This document shows, piece after piece, positions 15,808 through 17,186 of a stretch of 32,332 bases of DNA. Position numbers and translations under genes: made by a program. The notes below the pieces were generated by a model that saw only the letters and a list, made by a program, of their open reading frames with translations, did no database searches and was not told the origin of the DNA. Each line of letters begins with the position of its first letter. Within the stretch, counting starts at the first letter, position 1. The stretch is taken from positions 1 to 32,332 of the forward strand of contig VGNY01000013.1 in assembly GCA_016865895.1 (NCBI GenBank), read 5' to 3'. The stretch is from Chloroflexota bacterium (GTDB taxonomy: Bacteria > Chloroflexota > Dehalococcoidia > GIF9 > UBA5629).

Positions 15808-15885
15808 GGTGAGCGTAGCCGAGCGGTTTAAGGCGCCAGGTTGTGGCCCTGGAGAACGAGGGTTCGAATCCCTCCGCTCACCCCA
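15808..15885 (+). tRNA. tRNA-His (anticodon GTG)
   Basis: Acceptor GTGAGCG/CGCTCAC with an extra 5' G-1 opposite C73, anticodon stem-loop CCAGG-TTGTGGC-CCTGG, T-arm GGTTCGAATCC, encoded CCA. Confidence 0.95.
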
Positions 15886-15928: not shown

Positions 15929-16002
15929 GCGCCTATAGCTCAGCGGACAAGAGCACCGGTCTTCGGAACCGGGGGTCGTGGGTTCGAATCCCTCTAGGCG
16001 CG
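15929..16002 (+). tRNA. tRNA-Arg (anticodon TCG)
   Basis: Acceptor GCGCCTA/TAGGCGC, D-arm GCTC..GAGC, anticodon stem-loop CCGGT-CTTCGGA-ACCGG, T-arm GGTTCGAATCC. CCA not encoded. Confidence 0.94.
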
Positions 16003-16205
16003 CACTTATATCTGAAATTAACCCATTAGACCCTCGGTTTTCCCAAAATCATCAAATACATCCAGCTACAAAGTACGCTGTGCCGGCAAGCGAGTTGAAC
16101 TTTCCGTCATGTGCAGTACCCATCCCCCAATATTCCAGGGTTTATAGTAATGGAAGTTTGTAGTATAGTAGTTTCAACTATGGGGCACCTTTCAGGATTG
16201 GAGGT

Positions 16206-16688
16206 ATGATGATTAAAAAGAAAATATTGCGGCTTTGCCTGACGTTGCTAGCATCGAGCGCGGTAACGATGCCTGTTGCGTTTACGGCTTGTACATCAGC
16301 TACAGTTCCGGAGATTGATGCCCCATCTTCAACCGAACCATCGTCCAGCCTCCTGGAGAGAATACCACGAATTACGATAGATGAATTGCTGCAGAAGATG
16401 GCGGACAATAGCAATATACTCATCGTTGATACCCGCCATGCTGAGGAATATGAAGTAGACCATATCAAAAGCGCCATTTCTGCTCCTCTGGATACGATAA
16501 TTGCAGGGGACTGGATGCCACCTGCTGATAAAGAGATTATTCTTTATTGCGGCTGACCGGACGAGAAGACAAGTGCCCGTGCGGCATTCACATTGATAGA
16601 CAAAGGCTTTGGCAACGTGAAGGTCCTGAAAGGCGGATACAATGCCTGGAAGGCAGGCGGGTATGCTATGGAAACCGGCAGCCAGTAA
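16206..16688 (+). CDS. Rhodanese-like domain lipoprotein with in-frame UGA at 16554-16556, candidate selenoprotein (or disrupted gene)
   Basis: Signal/lipobox VAFTAC. First part ...EIILYCG, UGA, then the same frame continues PDEKTSARAAFTLIDKGFGNVKVLKGGYNAWKAGGYAMETGSQ to TAA at 16686-16688. The continuation is the canonical C-terminal half of a rhodanese domain. Confidence 0.8.
16572..16588 (+). promoter_or_regulatory. Candidate bacterial SECIS hairpin
   Basis: AGTGCC-CGTGC-GGCATT: 6-bp stem (including one G-U pair), 5-nt apical loop CGUGC. The loop starts 21 nt after the UGA and has G at its second position. Confidence 0.5.
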
Positions 16689-16727: not shown

Positions 16728-17186
16728 ATGATTGCGGTAGGCAGTAAAGCGCCTGATTTTACATTGAAAGACCAGGGCGGCAAAGAGGTACAACTATCTG
16801 AGCTTAAGGACAAAAGGATGCTGCTCTCTTTTCATCCGCTGGCCTGGACCAAAGTTTGTGCCGAGCAGATGAAATCGTTGGAAGCGAACTATGAGCGATT
16901 CGAAAAGCTGAACATCATAGCGCTTGGTCTTAGTGTTGATGCCGTACCCTCGAAAAAAGCCTGGGCTAATGAACTCGCCATCGAGAAGACCAGATTTCTT
17001 TCCGACTTCTGGCCCCACGGCGAAGTGGCAAAGCTATACGGCATATTCAGGGATAAGGATGGGTTTTCGGAAAGAGCCAACATCATAGTCGATGAGAACC
17101 AGAAGGTCACATTTGCTAAGACCTATCCCATCTCTCATCTGCCGGATATTGAGGAAATAATACAATTCCTGGCTGGCAAAAGTTGA
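16728..17186 (+). CDS. Peroxiredoxin (AhpC/TSA family)
   Basis: IAVGSKAPDFTLKDQGGKEVQLSELK, LSFHPLAWTKVCAEQMKSLE (peroxidatic Cys). ATG at 16728 follows the Shine-Dalgarno-like aaggagg; the ORF call starts at an upstream TTG. Confidence 0.9.
   Translation: MIAVGSKAPDFTLKDQGGKEVQLSELKDKRMLLSFHPLAWTKVCAEQMKSLEANYERFEKLNIIALGLSVDAVPSKKAWANELAIEKTRFLSDFWPHGEVAKLYGIFRDKDGFSERANIIVDENQKVTFAKTYPISHLPDIEEIIQFLAGKS

Follow-up and report, generated by a model that had tools for sequence, protein, structure and literature searches.

A CxU rhodanese selenoprotein with one selenocysteine (Sec) has already been catalogued as 'form 3' (PMC13188914; PMC9312934). It is described in NCBIfam by the model rhodanese_LYCAU (NF041203, example TKB26178.1), which consists of a rhodanese domain with CxU in the active-site loop. 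Forms 1, 2 and 4 of the rhodanese selenoproteins likewise have Sec in a rhodanese domain and are listed as single-Sec, UxxS or UxxG (PMC13188914). Another protein with Sec in the loop of a rhodanese domain is TsoB (NF045694), a large rhodanese/DsbD fusion-like protein (572-position model) with a UxxxxU motif. Bacterial SECIS (bSECIS) elements have a published shape, which comprises a stem of 4-16 bp, a loop of 3-9 nt with G in the first two bases, a distance from UGA to loop of 16-37 nt and a minimum free energy (MFE) of at most -7.5 kcal/mol (PMC13188914).

The window analysed here is a whole stretch of 32,332 nucleotides from a Chloroflexota bacterium, corresponding to one contig (C13) of a 2.61 Mb assembly in 306 contigs that is 96% complete and 8.9% contaminated; its gene content likewise suggests a Dehalococcoidia-like host. 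On the plus strand of the window a predicted gene for a Sec-containing rhodanese-like lipoprotein, with homologs across the phylum, occupies positions 16206-16688. Its frame of 160 codons plus TAA is interrupted by a single TGA at 16554-16556. Direct reading confirmed that the open reading frame 16206-16556 encodes 116 amino acids ending in EIILYCG. It also returned 43 further codons in frame before the TAA at 16686-16688, with a translation identical to that reported earlier. The rhodanese family (PF00581) matches residues 59-150 of the read-through protein with 63.7 bits (cut-off 22.2), the domain therefore spans the TGA, and its second half lies 3' of the UGA as the original prediction held. 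We propose that the UGA at codon 117 is translated as Sec, and give this reading a probability of roughly 0.93. Its support is at the level of sequence and comes from the frame, the conservation of the TGA, covariation in a hairpin, the Sec machinery and the predicted rhodanese fold.

A Shine-Dalgarno-like GGAGG was read directly at 16200-16204 (plus strand), its spacing is better for the second ATG (16209) than for the first (16206). Genes for tRNA-His and tRNA-Arg lie closely upstream of the rhodanese gene (window 15809-15885 and 15929-16003), and in an Rfam scan around the gene tRNAs alone were found above threshold.

The predicted protein starts with a putative N-terminal signal peptide with a weak lipobox, FTAC, identified by hydropathy and motif scan (16206-16292, plus strand), in which the lipobox cysteine is Cys29 (16290-16292). 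The protein had been described as an exported lipoprotein. FTAC is a weak match to a lipobox, and close relatives have the better motifs LVAC and LSGC. An N-terminal hydrophobic stretch is found in 44 of 57 CxU proteins, 20 of which also have a lipobox by a crude motif. We suggest that the gene product would be an exported, membrane-anchored single-domain rhodanese that may be lipidated.

An AlphaFold2 model built from 39 sequences gives a pLDDT of about 97 for the rhodanese domain, and its best PDB matches are rhodaneses. In this model C115 (16548-16550, plus strand) stands at the end of the strand formed by residues 110-114, and a profile alignment to solved rhodaneses places it at their catalytic Cys. 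The predicted Sec, U117, is encoded by the TGA (16554-16556, plus strand). The loop of the active site, which follows the fourth strand, would thus read C115-G-U117-P-D-E-K-T-S, with the usual catalytic Cys and a Sec two residues on. The resulting YCGU-PDE contains the CxU motif that also characterises NF041203. The U117 loop is about two residues longer than in solved rhodaneses.

A TGA is also found at the homologous codon in three complete relatives of the same family (G003 and G004, both YCSU, and G022, YCTU), and two further relatives have Cys, encoded by TGT or TGC, in the motif YCSC (G005 and G026). A fragment at a contig end in the same family (G027) reads YUAU, with TGA at both loop positions. 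Class- and phylum-wide searches returned many more homologs. In total 68 distinct post-UGA sequences have U at the site of residue 117, 12 are of the UxU form, and two orthologs are CxC; no UxC form was present among the homologs read in these searches. Distant matches that are ordinary rhodaneses without the motif (L056, L108, L111, L117, L123-L126 and L128-L130) were excluded from the Sec counts. The UGA therefore lies, as had been predicted, at a site of Cys/Sec exchange with conserved coding flanks, and chance is excluded because 68 distinct sequences share this TGA at the equivalent codon. A scan of the contig collection with the Cys-substituted protein found distant rhodaneses of other phyla only, none with the CxC/CxU pattern. 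A pattern scan of the window's own genome for a Cys-codon paralog gave four matches, no excess over a reversed-pattern control.

A nonsense mutation, a sequencing error or a pseudogene could in principle have truncated a former CxC rhodanese, as TGT or TGC becomes TGA by a single base change and the assembly is a draft in 306 contigs. This alternative, which had been raised for the gene from the start, is contradicted by the relatives that share the same codon across the phylum, by the conserved hairpin described below and by purifying selection after the TGA. Comparisons with G003, G004, G022 and G005 give a dN of 0.18-0.30 for the part that follows the TGA, with a dS that is at least 1.6 or saturated. 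The pattern 3' of the TGA is much like that of the 5' part and equally purifying, and close relatives show no decay of the downstream half. These rates indicate that the half downstream of the TGA is under constraint at the protein level, and we regard truncation as having a negligible probability.

Several homologs depart from the common architecture. One (L055, from G055) has the motif in a shifted position, VVYAEANDCGUPEHD, with a short insertion ahead of CGUP. Another (L047, G171:C34:19348-20088) is a tandem CxU-CxU protein whose two rhodanese domains have a TGA and a hairpin each. Four multi-span membrane proteins that resemble a cation/proton antiporter (L115:117-902, L119:117-869, L121 and L127) end in a C-terminal CxU rhodanese domain. 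Three related rhodaneses (midpoints L109, L114 and L122) have an in-frame TGA elsewhere in the loop (YCxGxTUGxSY, CxxxxU), and these are possibly another Sec rhodanese subtype.

The genes for Sec insertion are present in the same genome. One contig (C92) contains selB, which scores 349 bits and is over its cut-off, and a tRNA-Sec (selC) at 72.7 bits that ARAGORN also calls as SeC. The same contig has the C-terminal part of selA, which runs into the contig end and scores 262.1 bits, just below the cut-off of 267.9. On a second contig (C73) lies selD (L009, G000:C73:2831-3757), which scores 397 bits and has a TGA in frame within SGAGUASKLGPG; selD is therefore a second likely selenoprotein of this genome. 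The search proposed with the original prediction thus recovers selB, selC and selD complete and selA in part, all on contigs other than that of the window and in a possibly mixed bin (8.9% contaminated). Across 18 genomes checked with strict thresholds, selB and/or tRNA-Sec were found in 16 of the 16 with a TGA version and in neither of the two with Cys only. The two Cys sequences cluster in the tree (support 94/73) and adjoin the four CxU sequences of the family. This distribution fits a Cys/Sec change associated with the loss or lack of the Sec machinery, with either direction of change.

The inserted residue cannot be named from the sequence alone, and the UGA might instead be read by a Trp or Cys suppressor, or be read through partially to give two products. 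Against this, the residue that replaces U117 in the two genomes without selB and tRNA-Sec is Cys and never Trp, and a SECIS-like element lies at the right distance from the UGA. In addition, the neighbouring peroxiredoxin gene is terminated by an ordinary UGA (17184-17186), which bears out the earlier statement that UGA is a normal stop in this window. We consider read-through by means other than Sec very unlikely.

A candidate SECIS hairpin for codon 117 is found at 16572-16588 (plus strand). It reads AGUGCC-CGUGC-GGCAUU and has a 6-bp stem which starts 15 nt downstream of the UGA. For the loop, CGUGC (16578-16582), the spacing from the UGA is 21 nt, and the stem, loop and distance all fit the published bSECIS shape (PMC13188914). 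The conforming hairpin has an energy of about -6.4 kcal/mol, above the published -7.5, and most relatives are lower. Whole-segment folding of the window was no better than that of shuffles, and the MFE of a short segment chooses a different structure from the conforming hairpin. Thermodynamic folding of the window alone was therefore rejected as evidence for a SECIS, and comparative evidence was relied on.

The third base of codon 7 after the UGA, which mostly encodes Ala, is C in 68 of 68 sequences, and that of codon 9 is G in all 68. At codon 8 the third base is T in 63 of 68; elsewhere in these genes CGT makes up 75 of 476 Arg codons. The 5-bp core of the hairpin is paired in 99.4% of cells compared with 22-61% for slid controls, and nine double-change cells were seen where shuffles gave 1.1 on average and at most 5 (68 sequences in each case). 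A full 6-bp stem with a G loop is present in 31 of 62 rows, where 1.5 would be expected under synonymous recoding. These figures are not exact probabilities because related sequences are not independent. Compensatory changes include AGT..GCA for AGC..GCG, in the window among others, and TCAGCC..GGCTGA in L068. In L100 the pair is kept through two amino-acid changes, from SARAA to SVRAT. Taken together these comparisons are a strong signal that the hairpin is maintained by synonymous constraint and compensatory changes. The hairpin would direct SelB and Sec-tRNA to the UGA.

The 12 UxU rhodaneses (L038, L051-L054, L060, L067, L097, L100, L102, L112 and L120) have two TGA codons six bases apart, one of which is at the catalytic Cys position, where the window gene encodes C115. 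The hairpin loop lies 27 nt from the first UGA and 21 nt from the second; both distances are within the published 16-37 nt, so one hairpin could serve both. Of the UxU proteins, 11 have an N-terminus, and all 11 lack the hydrophobic stretch, compared with 13 of the 57 CxU proteins (p about 2e-6, uncorrected for kinship), and the UxU members with a known N-terminus look soluble. The UxU label needs five changes on a poorly resolved tree (three to five over bootstrap trees). We think it probable, with less assurance than for Sec at codon 117, that these proteins form a phylum-wide Sec rhodanese family which includes a soluble double-Sec form with a Sec nucleophile and one hairpin for both insertions.

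In the predicted membrane-anchored protein of the window C115 and U117 may act as a redox pair, alternating between selenenylsulfide and selenolate. Such a pair could accept or release persulfide sulfur, or reduce oxidised thiols, outside the cytoplasmic membrane. We rate this redox and sulfur-transfer chemistry at about even odds. The usual CxxGxR loop of rhodaneses is not kept in the window protein, and sulfurtransferase activity is therefore not assured.

The gene immediately downstream encodes an AhpC/TSA-type peroxiredoxin (16728-17186, plus strand; PF00578, 112.5 bits), which is 39 nt from the rhodanese gene, in the same direction and with its own ribosome-binding site. The proximity of the two had been mentioned when the rhodanese was first proposed as an extracytoplasmic selenium/sulfur redox enzyme. 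The peroxiredoxin was absent beside homologs at all loci fetched with flanks, the phylum loci having flanks of about 500 bases only; it was rejected as a conserved partner, and a functional link between the two proteins is unsupported. Sec might nevertheless be inserted into a protein that is chiefly an extracytoplasmic thiol/selenol redox enzyme, or a peroxide-coupled enzyme acting with the peroxiredoxin, and not a sulfurtransferase. CxU is a typical redox pair and the adjacent, co-directional gene is suggestive, but the neighbour is not conserved, the peroxiredoxin sequence lacks a signal peptide, and the fold and the position of the catalytic Cys are as in sulfurtransferases. This alternative is possible, though we hold it as the less probable account of the function; it bears on function alone and does not conflict with the reading of UGA as Sec.

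If the proposed reading is true, an anchored Sec rhodanese would put selenium into extracytoplasmic sulfur chemistry, and the UxU site would allow a sulfur/selenium transfer cycle based on a diselenide or selenopersulfide. With CxC, CxU and UxU in one fold, the series would be a natural experiment on the reasons for replacing Cys by Sec. With the UxU members one could ask directly whether a single SECIS recodes two UGAs six bases apart.

The locus was first presented as a new selenoprotein; as a kind it is not new, since CxU rhodaneses are already described in the publications cited above and in NF041203. NF041203 is the best NCBIfam match of the window protein and of all relatives scanned. 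The window protein scores 83.8 bits against a curated cut-off of 115, and all 13 relatives scanned are also below 115, ten of them at 61.5-114.7 and no close relative above 101.1. The family is therefore best described as a variant of that known kind, not as a confirmed member. As it scores below the curated model, automatic gene calling will probably end the frame at the UGA and miss the active site in many genomes. Other systems are further away. TsoB is a weak match (36 bits, its cut-off of 805 being far off) and differs in its fusion and its Sec spacing. In contrast to forms 1, 2 and 4, the window gene keeps the catalytic Cys and has Sec two residues on. The single-domain rhodaneses GlpE, PspE and YgaP share the fold and the catalytic Cys position, whereas they have Cys only, a shorter loop and no Sec. 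In the literature searched, with subscription journals largely outside it, a UxU rhodanese was not found, nor was any paper that links rhodanese and selenocysteine with Chloroflexota. Compared with form 3, members of the present family mostly have an N-terminal membrane anchor or lipobox, and the UxU variant is absent from the published lists. What appears to be new is thus a phylum-wide, mostly membrane-anchored CxU family together with a putative soluble UxU form.
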